Positions 11,731 to 64,000 of a DNA stretch of 64,000 nt are shown piece by piece. A program made the translations under genes and the position numbers. Position 1 is the stretch's first letter, and each line of letters begins with the position of its first letter. The notes under the pieces were generated by a model, which saw nothing but the letters and a program-made list of their open reading frames with translations, was not told the DNA's origin and made no database searches. This stretch comes from Scleromatobacter humisilvae (GTDB lineage: Bacteria > Pseudomonadota > Gammaproteobacteria > Burkholderiales > Burkholderiaceae_C), in assembly GCF_023231945.1 (NCBI RefSeq), contig NZ_JAJLJH010000002.1:620001-684000 (forward strand). The letters run 5' to 3'.

Positions 11731-14643
11731 TCAGAGCTTGTAGGACACGCGCAGGTCGATCGACGCGCCGGTCTCGTTCTGCTGGTTGACCGTGTGGTCG
11801 GCCTTGTACTCCGTGTACTTGGGCTTGTTGAGGTTGTTGCCCTCGACACGGAAGCCCAGGCCCTTGAGCCAGCCCGACTGGAACTCGTAGCCCATCTGCG
11901 CGGAGATCCACTTCTGCGACGCGATGTTGATCAGCGTCGGATAGCCGCCGACCGTGGTGTTGGCCACAGGACCGATGTACGCGGAACGGTAGGTGTCCGA
12001 GACGAAGGCGCTGAAGCCCCACTTCTCGAAGTACAGCTCGATCTTCTCGTTGATGTGCGACAGGCCGGGCAGGCCGATGGTGCCGCCGGTGCCGGGGATG
12101 GTCTGGGTGGGATTCAGGCCGATGACGTTGGGCTGGCGGATCGAGCTCGTCGTGTTCGAATAGCTCAGCGAGGTACCGAAGCCGTCGGCATAGCGCGTCA
12201 GCAGGTTGAACGGCAGCGATGCCGACAACTCGATGCCCTTGACGTTGCCGCCGTGGCCGTTGACGGCCTCCGTGTACGGACCGATCCAGCCGTTCTTGAA
12301 GCCGACGGGAATCGACGTCTGGCCGACGGCGGCAGCCGCACTCTGCAAGTCGACGATCGCCGACTGCTGCGTGATGTAGGTGTCGAGCTTCTTGAAGAAG
12401 ACGGCGCCCGCGAAGTACGCACGATTGGCGAAGTACTTCTCGTACGACAGGTCGAGCGCCTTGGCCTTGAAGGGCTTGAGGTACGGGTTGCCCGAGGAGG
12501 ACGTCTCGATGTTGTTCGTCGTGTCGCCGCCGACGGCATACGAGTTGCGCAGGTCCGTCATGTCCGGCCGCGCGATCTGCTCGCTGGCGCCGAAGCGCAG
12601 CGTGTTGCCGTTGCCCAGGTCGCCGACGAGGTTCAGCGAAGGCAGGTAGTCGGTGTAGCGCGTGCCTGCGGTCGAGAGCCCGGCGGCCGGGTTGGTCAGG
12701 GTGACGTCGGGCCCGGCGTTCGCGCGGAAGCCCTGCGAGTGCTGGTTGGTGTAGACAACCTGGAGGCCGACGTTCCCGCGCACCGGGATCTGGCCGACCT
12801 GGCTGTCGATGTCGAGCTTGCCGTAGCCGGTGGTCACGTTCTCGGTGACGTTCCAGCTCTTGGACAGGATGTCGTTGTTGAACTTCTGCTGCAGGCGGGC
12901 GCCGGGCCAGAGATCGGCCGTCGGATTGAAGCTGAGCAGATCCAGGCCGGTGCCGCCCACGTTGGGGACGACATAGGAGCCCGACGGGAACGGGATGGTG
13001 CCGGTGCCGTCGGGCGTGTCGGCGACGATCAGCGCCTCGACCGCGGTGCGATTCTTCGAGCGCTCGCTCCAGTTGGCGCCGAACTGCAGGTCGCTGAACC
13101 AGGAGTTGCCGGCCAGGTCGTGCGTGAAGTCCAGGCGCACGGCGGAGAGCTTGTCGATGGTCGTCGGGCCCTTGTCGTAGCCGTCCTGCGGAACGCCCGT
13201 GATGCCGCTCCAGCCGCTCTGGTCGCGGATGACGATGGTGCCGGGAGACGTGTAGCTGGTGGGCGCGAGCACGCTGAGGTGCGGCACCACGCCACCGACC
13301 GGCAGCGTGAAGCTGACGTCGTCGGCCTGCGTGATGCCGGCGTACGCCTCGATGTCGCGCTCGATGCGGCGGGCCTTGTTCTGGTTGACGTCCAGGCTCG
13401 CGCGCCAGGTGTCGTTGATCTTCAGGTCGCTGCGCCAGCCGAGCGACTGCAGCGTGTCGTCGTCGAACACGTTCTCGGTGTAGTCGATCAGGCCGCCGGG
13501 GTTGGCGCCGAGGTGATAGGTGCCCGAGGTGATCTGCTTCGTCGCCGAATCGACCGTCGCGTCGTAGACGTCGCCGGGCAGCGGCGCCTTGATCGTCGTG
13601 TGGTGCGTGTCGGTGTTGATCTGCGCGTGGTAGATGTCGAGCTCGGTCTTGAAGCGGTCGTTCGGCCTGAACTCGAGGATCGCGGCCGTGCCGGTGCGCT
13701 TGTCGGTGTACTTCTCCGAGTCGAAGCCCATGCCGCCGCCGAACGGCAGGTTGGTGCCGGTCTGGCACGTCGGGGCAACGCAAGTGGACGACTCGTCGCC
13801 CGCGGCGTGTGCGTTGATGTTCGTGCTGGCCCAGCTCGTCACGCCCAGTTGCGTGCTGCTGCCGTCCGAGCGCACGAACCCGATCGCCAGGCCGATCTTG
13901 CGGTCTGCGAACTGGTCGATGTAGGTGATGCTCTCGCGGTTGTTGTCGCCGTGGGGCTTGAGGCCGATGCTCGGGTGTCCCTTCTGCCCCGAGACCGCGA
14001 TGACGCGGTCGGGGAATGCAAGCGGGTCGACCAGCTTGTTGTCGATGGTGCCCGCCAGGCCGGCCGTGACCACGCTGGCATCGCTGGTCTTGTAGACCGT
14101 CGCGCCGGCGAGCAGTTCGGCGGGATAGACGCTCAGGTCCACCGTGCGGCTGTCGCCGGTGGAGGTCTGCTCGCGGCCGTTCAGCAGGTAGCCATTGAAA
14201 TCGGCGCTGAGGCCGCGGATGTTGACGTTGGTGGCGACGCCGTTGCGGTCGCGCTGCGCGGTGACACCGGGCAAGTGCGCCAGCGATTCGGCCACGGTCG
14301 TGTCGGGCAGCTTGCCGATGTCCTCGGCCGAGATCGCTTCCACGATCTGGTCGGAGTTCTTCTTGACCGAGATGGCCGCCTCGATGCCGCGGCGGATGCC
14401 GGTGACGACGACCTGCTGCTCGCCCGGGGGCGCCTTGCCGCCGACCATCGGCGTTACGGCCCCCGGCTCGGAAGCCGGTGCCGTCGCGGACGCCGCAGGA
14501 GCCGGAGATGGCGCGGCTTGCGCGTATGCCGCTCCGGTGGCCGCCAGCGCCCAGAAGGCGCCCGCCGTGGCTTGACCTGCGAATGCCATGGTCGGCTTGA
14601 GCTTGAAAGCAGCAGCCGAACGCTTGCCCGTTGAGTTTTTCAC
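11731..14643 (-). CDS. TonB-dependent outer-membrane receptor (maltodextrin-type locus)
   Basis: A 970-aa TonB-dependent receptor of the Xanthomonas/Caulobacter type, presumably importing maltodextrins given its neighbours. Order: long signal peptide ending TGAAYAQA, a proline/alanine-rich stretch, a TonB-box-like segment (QQVVVTGIRRGIEAAI), plug domain (PGVTAQRDRNGVATNVNIRG in the first 200 residues), then a 22-strand-type barrel ending with the aromatic-rich C-terminus DLRVSYKL. I chose the GTG at 14643 because AGGAGA (14651-14656) lies 7 bases upstream; an ATG 24 codons earlier lacks a ribosome site. It is divergent from the glucokinase-RpiR gene. Confidence 0.92.
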   Translation of the reverse strand: MKNSTGKRSAAAFKLKPTMAFAGQATAGAFWALAATGAAYAQAAPSPAPAASATAPASEPGAVTPMVGGKAPPGEQQVVVTGIRRGIEAAISVKKNSDQIVEAISAEDIGKLPDTTVAESLAHLPGVTAQRDRNGVATNVNIRGLSADFNGYLLNGREQTSTGDSRTVDLSVYPAELLAGATVYKTSDASVVTAGLAGTIDNKLVDPLAFPDRVIAVSGQKGHPSIGLKPHGDNNRESITYIDQFADRKIGLAIGFVRSDGSSTQLGVTSWASTNINAHAAGDESSTCVAPTCQTGTNLPFGGGMGFDSEKYTDKRTGTAAILEFRPNDRFKTELDIYHAQINTDTHHTTIKAPLPGDVYDATVDSATKQITSGTYHLGANPGGLIDYTENVFDDDTLQSLGWRSDLKINDTWRASLDVNQNKARRIERDIEAYAGITQADDVSFTLPVGGVVPHLSVLAPTSYTSPGTIVIRDQSGWSGITGVPQDGYDKGPTTIDKLSAVRLDFTHDLAGNSWFSDLQFGANWSERSKNRTAVEALIVADTPDGTGTIPFPSGSYVVPNVGGTGLDLLSFNPTADLWPGARLQQKFNNDILSKSWNVTENVTTGYGKLDIDSQVGQIPVRGNVGLQVVYTNQHSQGFRANAGPDVTLTNPAAGLSTAGTRYTDYLPSLNLVGDLGNGNTLRFGASEQIARPDMTDLRNSYAVGGDTTNNIETSSSGNPYLKPFKAKALDLSYEKYFANRAYFAGAVFFKKLDTYITQQSAIVDLQSAAAAVGQTSIPVGFKNGWIGPYTEAVNGHGGNVKGIELSASLPFNLLTRYADGFGTSLSYSNTTSSIRQPNVIGLNPTQTIPGTGGTIGLPGLSHINEKIELYFEKWGFSAFVSDTYRSAYIGPVANTTVGGYPTLINIASQKWISAQMGYEFQSGWLKGLGFRVEGNNLNKPKYTEYKADHTVNQQNETGASIDLRVSYKL

Positions 14644-15044
14644 CAGCTTGTCTCCTAAGTTCTGCGGACGGTCGCCAGGTGCGCCATCCGGTCGATACGA
14701 AGTGTTTGTAGTCAAACGACCCCCCTTCGCTGAAGGCCAAAAATCGGATGTATTAAAACTAGATCATCTGATTCTCGACAGAAGTTTACTGATCTTTTAC
14801 GCGTTTGCAAGGGTGATTCGCCTGCTAAACGCGCCATTTCGGCGCCCGCGACACGGGTAGAAACACGGGGGTCGCACCGCATTGATGCATAGTCCTGCTG
14901 GTTCCCCCCAGGACGCAGATGTAGCTCAATTACTTATCGTGCTGGAGTTTTGTAGCCAACCGACATGGGCAGCGGCCTCGCATCTCGAATGGAACCGCTT
15001 CCGTTCGCCGCGAAAACCGCCCGCGCAGGCCCGACAATCAGCGC
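14644..15044. other. Divergent intergenic region, TonB receptor / glucokinase
   Basis: About 400 bases without a credible gene between the minus-strand TonB receptor and the plus-strand glk-RpiR fusion. It is noticeably more AT-rich than its surroundings around 14735-14810. It contains a small palindrome (GTTTG-TAGT-CAAAC, 14704-14717) in the receptor leader and an inverted repeat AGATCA/TGATCT (14761-14766, 14790-14795), either of which could be an operator. No known operator consensus was recognised. Confidence 0.5.
14783..14810 (-). promoter_or_regulatory. Candidate sigma70-type promoter of the TonB receptor
   Basis: Read on the minus strand: a -35-like TTGCAA (14810-14805) and a -10-like TAAACT (14788-14783), 16 bases apart, about 140 bases upstream of the chosen start and overlapping the AGATCA/TGATCT inverted repeat. 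This is pattern-matching only. Confidence 0.3.
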
Positions 15045-57768: not shown

Positions 57769-59190
57769 TCAGATCGGCAGCGCGACCAGGTCGTGGCCCT
57801 CGGTGGCGACGATGCGGGCGCGCGTGAACTCGCCCACCTTCAGCTGCTTGGACAGCTTCTCCGGCGGCAGCAGGCGCACGATGCCGTCGATCTCGGGCGC
57901 ATCGGCGTACGAGCGGCCGACGCCGCCCTTCCTGCCCAGCATCGGCGCCTTGTCGACGAGGATCTGCATCGTCGCGCCGACGCGGCGCTGCAGCTTCGCG
58001 GCCGAGACCTCCTCGGCCACCGCCATGAAGCGCGCGCGGCGCTCCTCGCGCACTTCCTGCGGCAGCTGGCCCTCGATCTCGTTGGCCGTCGCGCCTTCGA
58101 CCGGCGAATAGGCGAAGCAGCCGGCGCGGTCGATCTGCGCCTCGCGCACGAAGTCGAGCAGCGTGTCGAACTCCGCTTCCGTCTCGCCCGGGAAGCCGGC
58201 GATGAACGTGCTGCGGACCACCAGCTCCGGGCACTTCTCGCGCCACATCTGCAGGCGCTCCAGCGTGCGTTCGCCCGTGCCGGGCCGCTTCATGCGCTTG
58301 AGCACGGCCGGGTGCGCGTGCTGGAACGGGATGTCGAGGTACGGCAGGATCCTGCCGCTGGCCATCAGGTCGATCACGTTGTCGACATGCGGATACGGGT
58401 ACACGTAATGCAGCCGCACCCACGCGCCGTACGTCGCGGCGAGGTCGCCCAGGCGCTCGCACAGGTCCAGCATGCGCGTCTTGACGGGCTTGCCGTCCCA
58501 GAAGCCGGTGCGGTACTGCACGTCGACGCCGTAGGCCGAGGTGTCCTGGCTCACCACCAGCAGCTCCTTGACGCCCGCCTCGAACAGCCGCTGCGCCTCG
58601 CCCAGCACGTCGCCGATCGGCCGCGACACCAGGTCGCCGCGCATGCTCGGGATGATGCAGAAGGTGCAGCGATGGTTGCAGCCCTCGCTGATCTTGAGGT
58701 ACGCGTAGTGCCGCGGCGTCAGCTTGATGCCCTGCGGCGGCACGAGGTCGACGAACGGGTCGTGCGGCTTGGGCACGTGCCGGTGCACGGCGTCCATCAC
58801 CTCCTGCGTCGCATGCGGGCCGGTCACGGCCAGCACCTTCGGATGGATCTCCTGGATCAGGTTGTCGCCGCCCGCCTTGCCGGGCTTGGCGCCCAGGCAT
58901 CCCGTGACGATCACCTTGCCGTTCTCGGCCAGCGCCTCGCCGATCGCGTCCAGGCTCTCCTTGACGGCATCGTCGATGAATCCGCAGGTGTTGACCACCA
59001 CGAGGTCGGCGCCCGAATAGCTCTTGCTGGTGCCGTAGCCCTCGGCGCGCAGCTGCGTGAGGATGAGCTCGGAGTCGGTCAGGGCCTTGGGGCAGCCGAG
59101 GGAAACGAAGGCGATGGTCGGTTCGGCCTTGGCTGGCGCGGGGGCGAGCGTGGCGTCGGTGAGGGCGTTCATCCTCCGATTGTCCCGCAT
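57769..59190 (-). CDS. rimO: Ribosomal protein S12 methylthiotransferase RimO
   Basis: A 473-aa radical SAM methylthiotransferase modifying Asp89 of ribosomal protein S12. It has the N-terminal MTTase domain ([24 protein letters not shown] and VTGCLGAK), the radical SAM motif CNHRCTFC, and a C-terminal TRAM domain. Starts at 59190 and 59172 are both possible; neither has a well-placed ribosome site, GGAGG being directly against the second. Confidence 0.95.
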
Positions 59191-59269: not shown

Positions 59270-60346
59270 TCAGGCCACTTCCGCCGCGATTGGAATCACG
59301 CGCTTGGCCGAATTCGCCTCGTAGGGACGGATCCAGACGGGACACGCCAGGATGCCGAAGTCGCGGCTGTGGAGCCCGCGGAACCAGTGCACGAGCTTCG
59401 CGTTGTCGATCTGGAGCGTGCCATCCAGGCGCAGCTGGCCGATGTCGTTTTTCGCATCCTCGAACGCCACCGTGCATTTGGCGATGCGGCCGTTGGCCCG
59501 CACGATCAGGTTGTTCGGCTTGGCCGCGTAGCAGACCTTGGGGGCCTTGTCCGAGGCTGGCTTGGCATCGGGCAGGCCGCGCATGCCCGACAGCAGGCCG
59601 GCCATCTCGGTGACGATCGCGCCGCGCTCGGCATGCTCGAGCGAGGTGATCGCCCCGGACTGCGGACCGCCGAGATTCTCGATCGCCTTCAGGTAGATGC
59701 CGAAACGCGGATCGGCGCCGAATTCGGCCTTGATGTTCCTGGCCAGTTCGCGGATGGAATCGCGGTTCTCGGGCATCAGGTGGATGCGCAGGATGACGTC
59801 GAGGTCCGGATACGGCGACTCGCGCAGCATCTTCAGCACGTTCCACACCGTGTCGAAAGTGCCGGCGCCGGCCCCGTTCCGACGCGTCCGGTCGTGACCT
59901 TCACGCCAGCCGTCCAGGGATATCTGGAATTTCTTCTGCTCCACCGCGACGAGTTTCTCCAGCAGGTCGCTCGTCAGCAGCGCGGCATTCGTCGTGATTT
60001 CACCGCCGAAGTATTGAACGCCTTCTTCCCGGCATCGCCTGAGGGCATATCCGGCAATATCCAGGAGAATATCCGACGCCACCAGCGGCTCGCCGCCAAA
60101 CCAGCCCAGCGTCAGATAATCCAGTTTCGGCAAACGAAGGTCGATCAGATTCTTGACGGCCTGGATCGTCTCGTCCGACATTCTGCCGTGTTCGAATGTC
60201 TCGTAGCAATAACTGCAACGCAGATTGCACTTCTCGGTCGGAAGCAGGATCAGCGAGAGGGTGTTGGGCGCCAGGGCGTGCGCGATGGCCAGCGAGGCGG
60301 GGTCCAGCGAGCCGGGCGCCTCGGTGGCGGCAGCAAGATTGCTCAT
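59270..60346 (-). CDS. Radical SAM peptide maturase with reduced (twitch-like) SPASM domain
   Basis: A 358-aa radical SAM enzyme predicted to modify the two precursor peptides encoded divergently. The SAM cluster motif is CNLRCSYC (Cys40, 44, 47), followed by GGEP (84-87), and the general layout follows sulfatase-maturase-like peptide modifiers. The C-terminal part holds only Cys272, then G286-x4-C291, and Cys335; the Cx2Cx5Cx3C block of a full SPASM domain is missing, so one auxiliary cluster is likely. No separate PqqD-like recognition domain was seen. The ATG at 60346 has CAGGA upstream; 54 further upstream codons are unsupported. It lies 79 bases after rimO but is probably a separate unit. 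Confidence 0.9.
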
Positions 60347-60720
60347 GAAATCCTGACGAAGATGCGGCCGCGCCTCGTGGGGCGACCAGGGGATGGCACG
60401 GCCTCGGCGGCTCGGCGGAATAGGCCGGCCCGGCTCGACGGATCGCAGCATAGTCGCCGCAGATAACCCTGCGAAACCCCCTAACTCATGGGGAAGAGGA
60501 AATACCAACAGGGCCGCCGAAAAACATGTGGTAAGCCCGCAGGCGAGGGTTACACATCAGAAACGAAACCCCACAACTAGCCCATCAAAATGGGAGGTCA
60601 TCGTATCCACTGCACGGGTTTTCACGCTCCCCTTCGATTGGCGGCGCAGATATCGTCCAGCCGCCAGCCATGTTATCCACGTGGCGGGTTACCTTTTATC
60701 TCAAACTCAGGAGAGATGTT
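60347..60720. other. Divergent control region of the RiPP locus
   Basis: 374 bases between the radical SAM gene and precursor 1. No gene seen; a 44-codon frame (60590-60724) overlaps the precursor start and is judged spurious. A short palindrome CCACGTGG (60677-60684) lies about 40 bases before the precursor. The promoters of both arms must lie here, but no clear -35/-10 pair was recognised. Confidence 0.5.
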
Positions 60721-60723
60721 TTG
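60709..60723 (+). promoter_or_regulatory. Ribosome site and TTG start of precursor 1
   Basis: AGGAGA (60709-60714) lies 6 bases before the TTG at 60721. This start gives MNEIN, which aligns with MNEFD of precursor 2, and so settles the start over the in-frame ATG at 60670. Confidence 0.85.
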
Positions 60724-60894
60724 AACGAAATCAACACGCAAGGCCAGGTCGAGCAACTGGCGATCGAACTGGACGACAACGGCATGGTCGTCGTGAACGA
60801 TCCGGAACTGCTGAAGGTCGTTGCCGGCGCCGGCATGCTGAGCCCGAACCTCCTGGTCGGCCAGAACTGGCACTGCGGCTGGAAGATGGAGTAA
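60721..60894 (+). CDS. RiPP precursor peptide 1
   Basis: A 57-aa precursor, too short for most gene callers. Leader residues 1-37 include IELDDNGMVVVNDPELLK, almost identical in precursor 2, and end in VVAGA, a double-glycine-type site (Gly-Ala). Predicted core: GMLSPNLLVGQNWHCGWKME (20 aa) with Trp50, Cys52, Trp54 and Lys55. The C-terminal CGWKM is shared with precursor 2 and is the likely modification site. Expected processing: modification by the divergent radical SAM enzyme, then leader removal and export by the downstream C39 ABC transporter. The final product and its role (antimicrobial or signal) are unknown. Confidence 0.85.
   Translation: MNEINTQGQVEQLAIELDDNGMVVVNDPELLKVVAGAGMLSPNLLVGQNWHCGWKME
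60769..60810 (+). repeat. 42-bp direct repeat, copy 1 (leader of precursor 1)
   Basis: Identical over 42 bases to 61042-61083. It encodes LDDNGMVVVNDPEL, the leader block shared by both precursors. Perfect identity at synonymous sites suggests a recent duplication or gene conversion. Confidence 0.95.
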
Positions 60895-60909
60895 CTCGCT
60901 GAGCGAGCG

Positions 60910-60959
60910 CGCCTGGAGGCGGCCGGACACGGCGGTCTCCAGGCGTTCGCCAAGGCGAA
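60910..60959 (+). other. Tandem stem-loops between precursors 1 and 2
   Basis: A perfect 9-bp inverted repeat CGCCTGGAG / CTCCAGGCG (60910-60918, 60937-60945) with an 18-base loop, followed directly by TTCGCC-AA-GGCGAA (60946-60959), in the 90-base spacer. No T-run. They could protect or partly terminate the precursor 1 transcript. Confidence 0.6.
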
Positions 60960-60984
60960 TCCGAAACACTTCAAGGAATTGGCA

Positions 60985-61161
60985 ATGAACGAATTCGACA
61001 AGCTCGACACCGAGCAAGCGCCGCAACTGCCGGCCATCGAGCTGGACGACAACGGCATGGTCGTCGTGAACGATCCGGAACTGCGCAAGCTGGTCAGCGG
61101 TGGCGACGGCTTCGGCGGCCTCATCGGCCACAACGACGGCTGCGGCTGGAAGATGAATTAA
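60985..61161 (+). CDS. RiPP precursor peptide 2
   Basis: A 58-aa precursor and paralogue of precursor 1. The ATG at 60985 is preceded by AAGGAA (60973-60978) at 6 bases; a TTG two codons upstream touches the ribosome site and is rejected. The leader carries IELDDNGMVVVNDPELRK and ends in LVSGG, a classical double-glycine cleavage site. Predicted core: DGFGGLIGHNDGCGWKMN (18 aa), glycine-rich, with Cys53, Trp55 and Lys56. Core regions differ between the two peptides except for the final CGWKM, so the system may make a two-peptide product. Confidence 0.85.
   Translation: MNEFDKLDTEQAPQLPAIELDDNGMVVVNDPELRKLVSGGDGFGGLIGHNDGCGWKMN
61042..61083 (+). repeat. 42-bp direct repeat, copy 2 (leader of precursor 2)
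   Basis: Second copy of the 42-base block at 60769-60810, 273 bases downstream, in the same frame. Confidence 0.95.
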
Positions 61162-61182
61162 GTTCTGGCGCCTTCGCGCCCT

Positions 61183-61206
61183 CGGCGGTCGCACGTGCGA
61201 CCGTCG
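61183..61206 (+). terminator. Stem-loop between precursor 2 and the exporter genes
   Basis: Centred on the perfect 18-bp palindrome CGGTCGCACGTGCGACCG (61186-61203); the stem extends outward through one G-T wobble to 61183-61206. It lies 21 bases after the precursor 2 stop and 16 before the HlyD start. There is no T-run, so it probably attenuates or stabilises rather than terminates. Confidence 0.6.
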
Positions 61207-61222
61207 CCGCTCCTGGAAGTGC

Positions 61223-62488
61223 ATGTCCCCGAATTCCCGTTTCGAGCTGTTCCGCCCCGAGGCGCTGGCACACGCCGGCTCCCGTCGCTACGGCGCCGTG
61301 GTGCTCGCCCACCCGTTGAGCTTCTCGCTACTGACCACCCTGTTCGTCGCGCTGGCGGTCGCCATCGTGCTGTTCCTGGCCTGCTTCAGCTACACCCGCA
61401 AGACCAGCCTGCCCGGCGTCCTGCTGCCCACGCAGGGGCTGATCCGCGTGGTGCCGGCGCAGGCGGGCCAGGTCGTCGAGGCGCGCGTGCACGAAGGCCA
61501 GAGCGTGCAGGCCGGTCAGGTGCTGTTCGTGCTGTCGCCCGAGCATGCGGCGCCCGCGCAGGGCAGCGCCGGGCAGACGGTGGAGAAGCTGCTCGAGACC
61601 CGGCGCGACAGCCTGCTCAGCGAGCAGTCGCAGGAGCGGCTGCAATCGCGCCTGCGCCGTGAGGCGCTGGGCAAGCGCGTGGAAGACCTCGCCGCCGACG
61701 GCAGCCGCATCGCCGCCCAGATCGGCCTGCAGGTCCATCGCACGCAGCTCGCCGAGGTCGCCCTCAAGCGCTACGAAGACCTGCAGAAGGACAATTTCGT
61801 CTCGCCGGTGCAGGTGCAGGACAAGCAGGCCGAATTGCTGGACCAGCAGCAGCGCCTCGCCGACCTGCAGCGCGCGCGCGCCGCGAGCGCGCGCGATCTC
61901 GCGACGGCGCAGGCCGACGTGCGCGATCTCGAGGTGCAGGGCCGACGCGACGAGCAGGCGGCCGAGCGCAGCATCGCCAGCAGCGAACTGGAGCTCGCGG
62001 AGAACGACACCCGGCGCGAGATCATCGTGCGCGCGCCGAGGGCCGGCATCGTCTCGGCGGTCGCGGCCGTCGCCGGGCAATCCGTCACGCCGGCCAACGT
62101 GCTGGCCGCGATCACGCCGGCGGGCTCCGAGATGGAAGCCGAACTCTATGCGCCCTCGCGTTCGGCGGGATTCCTGCACGCGGGGATGCCGGTCTCGCTG
62201 CGCTACCAGGCGTATTCGTACCAGAAGTTCGGGCAGTCTCACGGCGTCGTGCGCGAGGTCTCGCGCACCGCGCTGCGCCCGGCCGACCTGGAGATCGCCG
62301 GCCTCGTCGCCGACACGGAACCGCTCTACCGCGTGCGGGTGCGACTCGATCGCCAGACGGTCATGGCCTACGGGGAGAATCAGCCGCTGCGCGCCGGCGA
62401 CCTGCTCGACGGCAGCGTCGTCATCGACCGTCGCCGGCTCTGGGAGTGGGTGCTGGAACCGCTCTACACCGTCACCGGCCGCCTCTGA
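61223..62488 (+). CDS. HlyD-family secretion adaptor of the RiPP exporter
   Basis: A 421-aa periplasmic adaptor (membrane fusion protein) linking an ABC exporter to an outer-membrane channel. It has one N-terminal transmembrane helix (LFVALAVAIVLFLACFSY, residues about 34-52), a lipoyl half-motif (GQVVEARVHEGQSVQAGQVLF, parts GQVVEARVHEG and QSVQAGQVLF), a long coiled-coil hairpin (about 110-255), then the second half-motif (RAPRAGIVSAVAAVAGQSV) and a beta-barrel domain. It resembles CvaA-type partners of peptidase-containing exporters. Its stop overlaps the ABC gene by 1 base (TGATG). No TolC-like gene is in view. Confidence 0.92.
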   Translation: MSPNSRFELFRPEALAHAGSRRYGAVVLAHPLSFSLLTTLFVALAVAIVLFLACFSYTRKTSLPGVLLPTQGLIRVVPAQAGQVVEARVHEGQSVQAGQVLFVLSPEHAAPAQGSAGQTVEKLLETRRDSLLSEQSQERLQSRLRREALGKRVEDLAADGSRIAAQIGLQVHRTQLAEVALKRYEDLQKDNFVSPVQVQDKQAELLDQQQRLADLQRARAASARDLATAQADVRDLEVQGRRDEQAAERSIASSELELAENDTRREIIVRAPRAGIVSAVAAVAGQSVTPANVLAAITPAGSEMEAELYAPSRSAGFLHAGMPVSLRYQAYSYQKFGQSHGVVREVSRTALRPADLEIAGLVADTEPLYRVRVRLDRQTVMAYGENQPLRAGDLLDGSVVIDRRRLWEWVLEPLYTVTGRL

Positions 62489-64000
62489 TGCCCGCACCCG
62501 CCTTTCTCAACCCGCGCTTCTGGGGCGCCGCCGACCTGCCGCTCGTCCTGCAGACCGAGGCGTCCGAGTGCGGCCTGGCCTGCCTGGCGATGGTGGCCAG
62601 CCACTGGCGCCATCGCATCGACCTCACCCAACTGCGCCGCCGTTTCCCGATCTCGCTCAAGGGCGCGACGCTGGAAGTCGTCGTGCACATGGCGCGGGCG
62701 CTGGGCCTGCACAGCCGCACGCTGCGCCTCGAACTGGCGCAGCTGGACAAGCTCAAGACGCCCTGCGTGCTGCATTGGGACATGGCCCACTTCGTCGTGC
62801 TGAAGGAAGCGCGCAACGGCAGCATCGTGATCCACGATCCGGCCGTGGGCGTGCGCCGCATCCCGATGGACGAGGTCTCCAGGCACTTCACGGGCATCGC
62901 GCTCGAACTGACGCCGGGCCCCGGCTTCCAGCCGCAGTCCGAAGTGCAACGGTTCTCGCTGCGCTCGCTGGTGGGGCACGTCACCGGTCTCAAGCGAGGC
63001 CTCGCGCAACTCCTGCTGGTCGGCGTGGCGCTGCAGGTCTGCGCGCTCGTGGCGCCGTTCTACCTGCAGTGGCTCGTCGACGAGGCGCTCGTCGCCGACG
63101 ATCGCGACCTGATCACCGTGCTGGGCATCGGCTTCCTGCTGCTGGTCGTGATGCAGACGCTCATCGGCGCGGTGCGTTCGTGGATGACCACCATGCTGTC
63201 GACGGACATGAACTTCCAGTGGTTCGGCAACGCGTTCGCCCACCTGATGCGGCTGCCGCTGTCCTTCTTCGAGAAGCGGCACCTGGGCGACATCGTGTCG
63301 CGATTCGGCTCGATCCAGACGATCCAGCACCTTCTCACGACCCAGTTCGTCGAGGCCGTGATCGACGGCCTGCTCGTCGGCGGCACGGCCATCGTGATGC
63401 TGGCCTACAGCCCCCGCCTGACGATGGTGTCGGCCATCGCGGTCATCCTCTACGCGCTGCTTCGCTGGAGCCTGTTCCACCGCCTTCGCACTGCCACGTC
63501 CGAGCAGATCATCTTCGCCGCCAGGCAGCAGACCTACTTCATGGAATCGGCCCGCGGCGCGCAGAGCATCCGCCTGTTCGACCGCGCCGAGGAACGCCGA
63601 GGCGGCTGGATGAACCTGCTGGCCGACCAGTTCAACGCCGACGTGCGCATTGCGCGCCTGACGATCTCGCACCAGACCGCCAACGCCCTGCTGTTCAACG
63701 CCGAGCGCGTCGTCGTGATCTGGATGGCCGCGCTGGCCGTGCTCGACCACCGCTTCTCGGTCGGCATGCTGTTCGCGTTCCTGAGCTACAAGGACCAGTT
63801 CAGCCAGCGCATCTCGGCGCTGATCGACAAGCTGTTCGAGTTCCGCATGCTTCGCCTGCACGGCGAGCGCGTCGCCGACATCGTGCTGGCCGAGCCCGAG
63901 GAGGACAGGCTCGAGCCGCCAGGCGACGGCCGCGAGCTCGACGCCTCCATCGAGCTGCGCGACGTGTCGTTCCGCTACGCGGACGGCGAACCCTGGGTGC
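62488..64000 (+). CDS. C39-peptidase ABC exporter (3' partial)
   Basis: Peptidase-containing ABC transporter (PCAT) that cleaves double-glycine leaders and exports the core. At least 504 aa are visible; the frame is open at the window end. The N-terminal C39 peptidase has the full catalytic set: Gln22, Cys28 (QTEASECGLACLAMV), His101 (AHFVVLKEA) and Asp117 (HDPAVG). Six transmembrane helices follow (about residues 165-450), with the ABC domain starting at IELRDVSFRYADGEPW. The Walker motifs lie beyond the window. The 1-base overlap with HlyD indicates one operon with the precursors. Confidence 0.93.
   Translation, partial: MPAPAFLNPRFWGAADLPLVLQTEASECGLACLAMVASHWRHRIDLTQLRRRFPISLKGATLEVVVHMARALGLHSRTLRLELAQLDKLKTPCVLHWDMAHFVVLKEARNGSIVIHDPAVGVRRIPMDEVSRHFTGIALELTPGPGFQPQSEVQRFSLRSLVGHVTGLKRGLAQLLLVGVALQVCALVAPFYLQWLVDEALVADDRDLITVLGIGFLLLVVMQTLIGAVRSWMTTMLSTDMNFQWFGNAFAHLMRLPLSFFEKRHLGDIVSRFGSIQTIQHLLTTQFVEAVIDGLLVGGTAIVMLAYSPRLTMVSAIAVILYALLRWSLFHRLRTATSEQIIFAARQQTYFMESARGAQSIRLFDRAEERRGGWMNLLADQFNADVRIARLTISHQTANALLFNAERVVVIWMAALAVLDHRFSVGMLFAFLSYKDQFSQRISALIDKLFEFRMLRLHGERVADIVLAEPEEDRLEPPGDGRELDASIELRDVSFRYADGEPWV

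Follow-up and report, generated by a model that had tools for sequence, protein, structure and literature searches.

We describe a cassette in which a radical SAM enzyme very likely acts on an Asn-Cys pair in each of two short precursor peptides, as judged from the sequences of the family. Its product is probably a ranthipeptide-like RiPP, coupled to export, in which each peptide carries a single Asn-Cys β-thioether. The cassette is made up of two small ORFs with a common leader, a divergent radical SAM gene, and genes for a HlyD-type protein and a C39 exporter, and lies in the window, by which we mean the whole 64,000-nucleotide stretch of DNA analysed here. A first-pass annotation of the window had picked the right genes and the wrong part of the peptide: it placed the cross-link inside C-x-W-K, within the CGWKM motif of both precursors. 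The feature shared with relatives is instead an Asn at -3 or -4 of the Cys.

A probable RiPP cassette beside rimO

The components of the cassette are as follows:

59270-60346, - strand: radical SAM maturase of 358 aa (PF04055, 4.8e-20; conserved alignment columns)
60721-60894, + strand: precursor peptide 1 of 57 aa; leader up to VAGA, core QNWHC then GWKM
60895-60984, + strand: stem-loop between both precursors (RNA fold, -49.6 kcal/mol)
60985-61161, + strand: precursor peptide 2 of 58 aa; leader up to VSGG, core HNDGC then GWKM
61223-62488, + strand: HlyD-type membrane fusion protein (PF13437, 7.6e-15; TIGR01843, 7.4e-33, below cut-off)
62488-64000, + strand, continuing 647 bases beyond the window: C39 peptidase/ABC exporter (PF03412, 1.4e-33; PF00664, 7.4e-31)

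The Pfam matches bear out the earlier calls of a divergent radical SAM enzyme, a HlyD protein and a downstream C39 ABC exporter. The complete C39-ABC ORF was read at L003:4489-6648, and the residues that we take to be the C39 catalytic ones were judged by eye. No regulator gene is found among the cassette ORFs, and a sigma-70-like promoter and a terminator were looked for in 60300-61300 with none seen. The stem-loop between the precursors has a z of -4.92, with equal stability in 0 of 200 shuffles; a second, weaker hairpin lies 3' of precursor 2 (z -2.04; 7 of 200 shuffles).

The cassette adjoins a gene on the - strand that we take from its sequence to be rimO (57769-59190). This gene is present in all three genus-mates searched, and its flank was readable in two, G003 and G001. 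The former has about 85 bp in place of 59239-64715, and the latter has about 5.7 kb of different sequence at the cassette position; about 267 bp 3' of the cassette is retained in both. The maturase, HlyD and ABC protein find no match in the fetched flank of either. The cassette is absent at the same place in both genus-mates with a readable flank, and because of this comparison it looks like a single unit inserted at a variable site, apparently an acquired one. Past the retained 267 bp, both genus-mates also lack 64984-67513, the location of an acyltransferase gene and a glycosyltransferase-like one. The rimO flank (from 59239 on in the window; L089:6018-11755) is variable-looking in its own right, being occupied by the RiPP cassette in the window, by a short spacer in G003 and by other sequence in G001.

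Two paralogous precursors

Precursor 1 starts with TTG, with GGAGAG 5 nt upstream, and precursor 2 with ATG, with AAGGA 7 nt upstream; both upstream elements are ribosome-site-like. The leader block IELDDNGMVVVNDPEL is identical at 47 of 48 nt between the two and CGWKM at 15 of 15 nt, with the stretch between leader and CGWKM diverged. A GA (VAGA, precursor 1) or a GG (VSGG, precursor 2) stands ahead of each core, and each core has a single Cys with an Asn at -3 (QNWHC, HNDGC). The paired ORFs, ribosome sites, near-identical leaders, GG/GA sites and CGWKM were thus all present as first annotated; the Asn, which is common to relatives, had been left out of that account of the shared core. The likeness of the precursors is beyond chance, given 16 identical leader residues in adjoining ORFs and relatives of the leader beside related radical SAM genes elsewhere. 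The features of double-glycine/C39 export are all present: GG/GA after the leader, a C39-ABC gene and a HlyD adaptor.

With precursor 2 as query, the host's own genome gave these two copies only, and a search of 299 genomes likewise found only the window's own two; hence, relatives were sought via the maturase. The window precursors have no counterpart in Pfam or NCBIfam (0 matches at E<=1), and the precursors of relatives gave chance-level matches only (NCBIfam on 8, Pfam on 4).

A sparse, phylum-crossing maturase family

The maturase family is rare and sparse, and reaches Proteobacteria as well as Streptomyces and Deinococcus plasmids. Within the genus it is found in one of four genomes, the host's own. 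With that genome included, the maturase has matches in 5/399 genomes of the order, 3/369 of the class, 3/399 of the taxonomic family and 4/398 of the phylum; these samples overlap, and the matches include G545, G1208 and G1329 (141-163 bits), which we count outside the maturase family. When the maturase sequence alone was used to scan the genome collection, just one relative came up, and it was truncated. The nearest maturases, at 51% and 50%, both belong to one genome of the same order. Plasmid relatives come from 11 records of Streptomyces, Sinorhizobium, Deinococcus, Bradyrhizobium and Acetobacter, all below 60% identity. Contigs of a viral collection hold 43 maturase-related loci of mixed distance, and phage records distant fragments only (6 records, 0 reaching 80% coverage). 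By profile the family scores above 200 bits versus less than about 165 for other radical SAM enzymes, interrupted or cut-off pieces falling between and below. In the tree it is set apart from the five outgroup rows; most inner branches are open, so the Asn-Cys register is not mappable to clades.

Once redundancy is removed, 27 loci score above 200 bits and are counted in the family. A leader-profile peptide (E<0.05) lies at most 4 kb away in 17 of them, and in seven more (L029, L031, L032, L034, L035, L038, L081) a neighboring ORF on the same strand contains N-x2/3-C. The other three (L030, L036, L039) have no Asn-Cys peptide by the criteria used; the ORF adjoining the L039 maturase carries D-x-x-C. 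A genome of the same taxonomic family as the window (G1053) has, in a row, a precursor, a radical SAM gene, a gene of unassigned family, HlyD (34%), C39-ABC (51%) and an outer-membrane efflux gene, i.e. the window's gene set plus a TolC-type gene. C39-type ABC genes (25-26% identity) also occur near the L015 and L016 maturases.

These neighborhoods bear on the simplest account of the window, namely plain double-glycine peptides that are merely exported, with the radical SAM gene as an unrelated neighbor. That gene sits on the opposite strand, and C39 exporters also handle unmodified peptides. Against this, leader peptides recur beside family maturases at the frequency given above, and in Streptomyces and Sinorhizobium they adjoin them with no annotated C39 gene in the stretch shown. 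We therefore regard mere export as very unlikely, and favor modification of the peptides by the maturase.

Several loci show variations on this organization. A gene with no Pfam family lies between maturase and HlyD at L080:7488-8456; by eye it is lipoprotein-like with two D-T-G motifs, of the kind that occur in aspartic proteases. Starts resembling Sec signal peptides were seen by eye in L022:7673-7909, L081:8950-9201, L034:4705-4920, L035:4630-4923, L038:4695-4925 and L054:4454-4929, and part of the family may thus exit the cell via a non-C39 route. On a Deinococcus plasmid (L023:3347-6476) a leader-bearing precursor adjoins an annotated lantibiotic dehydratase and a thiopeptide-type biosynthesis protein; this precursor is possibly modified by both chemistries. 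Interrupted maturases stand beside intact-looking Cys-rich precursors at L016:8018-9292 (in-frame stop) and L014:7910-9087 (split frame). At L015:10036-11277 and 13511-14752 there are two identical maturase copies; the precursors that follow them differ from each other and have their leader in common.

Asn-Cys pairing marks the likely site of modification

Outside the window and its own copies CGWKM is absent from all six frames of 90 maturase-related loci, so that homologous maturases stand without it, an outcome that the first-pass annotation had itself named as refuting its reading. C-x-W-K is found in 0 of the other 21 leader-defined cores, and 17 of these have no Trp at all. In the closest relative, L012, the peptide reads HNRGCGSNFRC versus HNDGCGWKM in the window: the Asn-Cys part is kept and WKM is lost.

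Across 23 leader-defined precursors, 59 of 83 core Cys have an Asn at -3 or -4 (mean 20.7 and maximum 32 in 2000 shuffles of the non-Cys residues), and all 23 have at least one such pair (shuffles: mean 11.7, maximum 20), although near-relatives among them (L020/L023, L015a/b, L077a/b) mean that these are not 23 independent cases. When residue-offset cells are ranked, N at -4 comes first (z 7.8) and N at -3 second (z 5.8); compared with the largest cell in each of 1000 shuffles, the latter is above the 99% level of 5.2 and below the maximum of 6.0. If only the 16 non-window precursors with four Cys or fewer are taken, N at -3 leads (19/41, z 8.0). There is also an excess of N at +5 (z 4.2), which may stem from repetition of the motif. 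Asp has no enrichment at -3 or -4. Many relatives have N-x-x-x-C instead of N-x-x-C, and 24 of the 83 Cys have Asn at neither position. In L016, 10 of 11 Cys have Asn at -3/-4. All five core Cys of the peptide at L032:6078-6359 sit in N-x-x-C.

The 17 leader seeds were picked by eye beside radical SAM genes after N-x-x-C had been noticed in some, and the leader window ends before the core; as a check on this leader-picked set we used a test that ignores the leader. In the 16 loci of this test, adjacent ORFs on the same strand contain 81 Cys, of which 37 have Asn at -3/-4 (in shuffles, a mean of 9.8 and a maximum of 19). The count is 4 of 46 for adjacent ORFs on the opposite strand (shuffle mean 3.4) and 60 of 1103 for distant ORFs (shuffle mean 58.5). 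At least two Cys were required; four of the 16 loci (L037, L077, L078, L080) are also in the leader set, and some of the 24 adjacent ORFs are plainly not genes. Peptides known by adjacency only (L029, L031, L032, L034, L035, L038, L054, L081) enter this test alone. Left out before counting were the duplicate loci L033 and L084, a Deinococcus ORF (L023:6538-6714) with no leader match and Asp at -3 of its Cys, and leader matches with E >0.05 (including L081, L031, L032 and clear chance matches). Asn-Cys pairing in the family is thus well supported by sequence comparison.

This pairing displaces the Trp-Lys or Trp-centered cyclophane within CGWKM that had been offered as an alternative to a thioether. 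The perfect nucleotide identity of CGWKM after a diverged stretch speaks for such a ring; nevertheless, since Asn and leader are likewise common to both paralogs, a recent copy accounts for it. With the motif confined to the window and most other cores devoid of Trp, a Trp-based acceptor motif of the kind expected for cyclophane RiPPs (streptide, triceptides) is not kept across the family, and we consider such a ring very unlikely. A thioether from the lone Cys, which was among the options first listed, would fit the N-x-x-C pairing.

The pair could also undergo some other reaction, for example linkage of sulfur to nitrogen, ring closure through the backbone, or an alteration of the Asn for which the Cys need only be close by. 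The pairing is observed in the sequences while the product is inferred, and the N-x2-C and N-x3-C registers could hide two reactions. On the other hand, the window cassette has no accessory modifying gene, and the known precedent, as far as the accessible parts of the sources go, is a C-β thioether. We judge these other reactions to be quite unlikely, and take a thioether as the working assumption.

The maturase and the nature of the bond

The maturase has CxxxCxxC at 40-47 and three further conserved Cys at 272, 291 and 335. The C-terminal domain pattern C272-x13-G-x4-C291 plus C335 is invariant in alignment A2, and C335 is nearly invariant in alignment A1. This fits a twitch-like maturase with room for one auxiliary cluster, and is consistent with the RiPP system as first annotated: paralogous precursors, a twitch-like maturase and a C39 exporter. 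Such a cluster might have three protein ligands and an open iron able to hold the substrate thiolate; the MoaA cluster has an open iron according to the readable part of the source (PMC9012708).

Apart from the radical SAM domain, Pfam finds in the window's enzyme just a marginal, overlapping Fer4_12; about 30 residues lie ahead of the radical SAM domain, and no leader-binding domain is seen; the picture is the same for the L012 maturase. Some maturases carry a fused recognition domain, and the mode of leader binding must differ from theirs in the window's enzyme. The Deinococcus enzyme of L020 has a longer N-terminus with no Pfam family.

No NCBIfam model reaches its cut-off among the best 25 matches listed for the maturase. 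The best is TIGR04463 (112.7 bits versus a cut-off of 525), and both sacti- and ranthipeptide maturases are among the best matches, all under cut-off. The closest solved entries, by sequence (5.1e-13) and by fold, are 5wgg/5why, which we take to be CteB, a thioether maturase. Because the structure model behind the fold comparison is of middling quality (mean pLDDT 73.9, with the C-terminal domain worse), the type of bond is not argued from it. Its fold matches also include SkfB (6efn) and PDB entries of ChlB with its leader, for which our literature search found no paper.

In the sactipeptide version of the reaction, the sulfur would be bonded to the C-α of the same Asn. Sequence cannot tell α from β, and both the mixed NCBIfam matches and SkfB among the fold matches are compatible with it. 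The best structural matches point the other way, being presumably to a ranthipeptide maturase, as does the single characterized N-x-x-C peptide found in the literature, which has a C-β bond in the portions of the reports open to us. We thus consider an α bond unlikely, and by analogy favor the β-thioether as the probable bond.

Proposed biosynthesis

We propose that the radical SAM enzyme binds both precursors via LDxxGMxxxxDPEL, their conserved leader, generates a 5'-deoxyadenosyl radical and takes a β-hydrogen off the core Asn of QNWHC and HNDGC. With NxxcB of Streptococcus as the model, the Asn β carbon would then be bonded to the Cys sulfur three positions further on, giving one small Asn-Cys β-thioether ring per peptide (-2 Da). 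The known biology of the exporter families suggests that the C39 domain would cut after the GA/GG of VAGA and VSGG, and that HlyD-ABC with a TolC encoded elsewhere would export the product. An antibacterial or signalling role for it is a guess.

A wider proposition, which we regard as evenly balanced, is that a sparse, phylum-crossing radical SAM family makes Asn-Cys thioether rings in both N-x2-C and N-x3-C registers, from one ring per peptide in the window to perhaps ten in L016. The window member would do so with no recognizable leader-binding domain and with room for one auxiliary cluster, and the family would be coupled, depending on the host, to C39 export, Sec-like signal peptides or a lanthipeptide-type dehydratase.

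Comparison with known systems

At the gene level the window has what characterizes ranthipeptide systems, a ribosomal precursor with a Cys donor beside a radical SAM maturase, and both cores carry the N-x-x-C of NxxC peptides. NxxcA of Streptococcus orisratti has a single thioether from Cys23 to the Asn20 β carbon made by NxxcB, according to the parts seen of PMC8326336 and PMC13361665. Like QNWHC and HNDGC, its core has the Asn upstream of the Cys in the same register and direction, a single ring is expected in both, and in both the radical SAM maturase would have an auxiliary cluster domain. NxxcB is listed as a SPASM enzyme in the accessible text of PMC9012708, versus three conserved C-terminal Cys here, a comparison made by description. 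The leader and the host differ as well: the NxxC subfamily has streptococcal hosts with Rgg/SHP control, and the host here is not streptococcal judging by its relatives. The window system has C39/HlyD export, and the family here includes N-x-x-x-C relatives and multi-pair cores. The chemistry, first thought possibly new, is probably not new in kind, as N-x-x-C is the known NxxcB motif.

Other systems are more distant. The SCIFF maturase CteB is likewise thioether-forming; however, it has a six-Cys substrate and about 20% identity, and the window has one Cys per peptide as against six in about 45 residues, with TIGR03974 at 56.4 bits versus a cut-off of 425. The CteA peptide has a Cys-to-Thr C-γ thioether, as given in the readable part of PMC8326336. 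PapB, of freyrasin, is alike in that its β-thioethers go to a carbonyl-bearing side chain, and its NF047865 model scores 94.5 bits (cut-off 340). In the PapB motif, Cys-x3-Asp, the acceptor lies downstream of the Cys (PMC9413430, seen in part), whereas this motif is missing from both cores and Asp is not enriched in the family. The TIGR04463 radical SAM/SPASM maturases have a longer model (438 positions), whose cut-off is far off.

None of the curated families, among the best 25 NCBIfam matches listed and in Pfam, covers the maturase family or the precursors. Our literature search matched no papers on NxxxC or TIGR04463, and the matches listed from the openly readable literature on NxxC, ranthipeptides and C39-linked radical SAM enzymes, as far as their text was accessible, gave no description of this Asn-Cys family.

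In place of an open-ended claim about CGWKM there is now a sharp prediction, namely that each peptide carries a single Asn-Cys ring (-2 Da). Within the portions of the literature covered, streptococci are the only recorded source of NxxC chemistry, and the family would extend it to Gram-negatives and actinomycetes. As substrates it would offer small peptides with a single Cys and natural ones with several pairs, such as that of L032 with five N-x-x-C running; it would also add rings of a second size, and an enzyme whose leader recognition seems to need no domain of the usual kind. These would be useful for peptide cyclization, and for studying how acceptor and register are set within a single enzyme fold. 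Set beside the known systems, what is new here is the phylum-crossing family, the leader-binding domain not seen in the window's enzyme, the three conserved C-terminal Cys and the N-x-x-x-C register, with a bond that is probably the one NxxcB makes.
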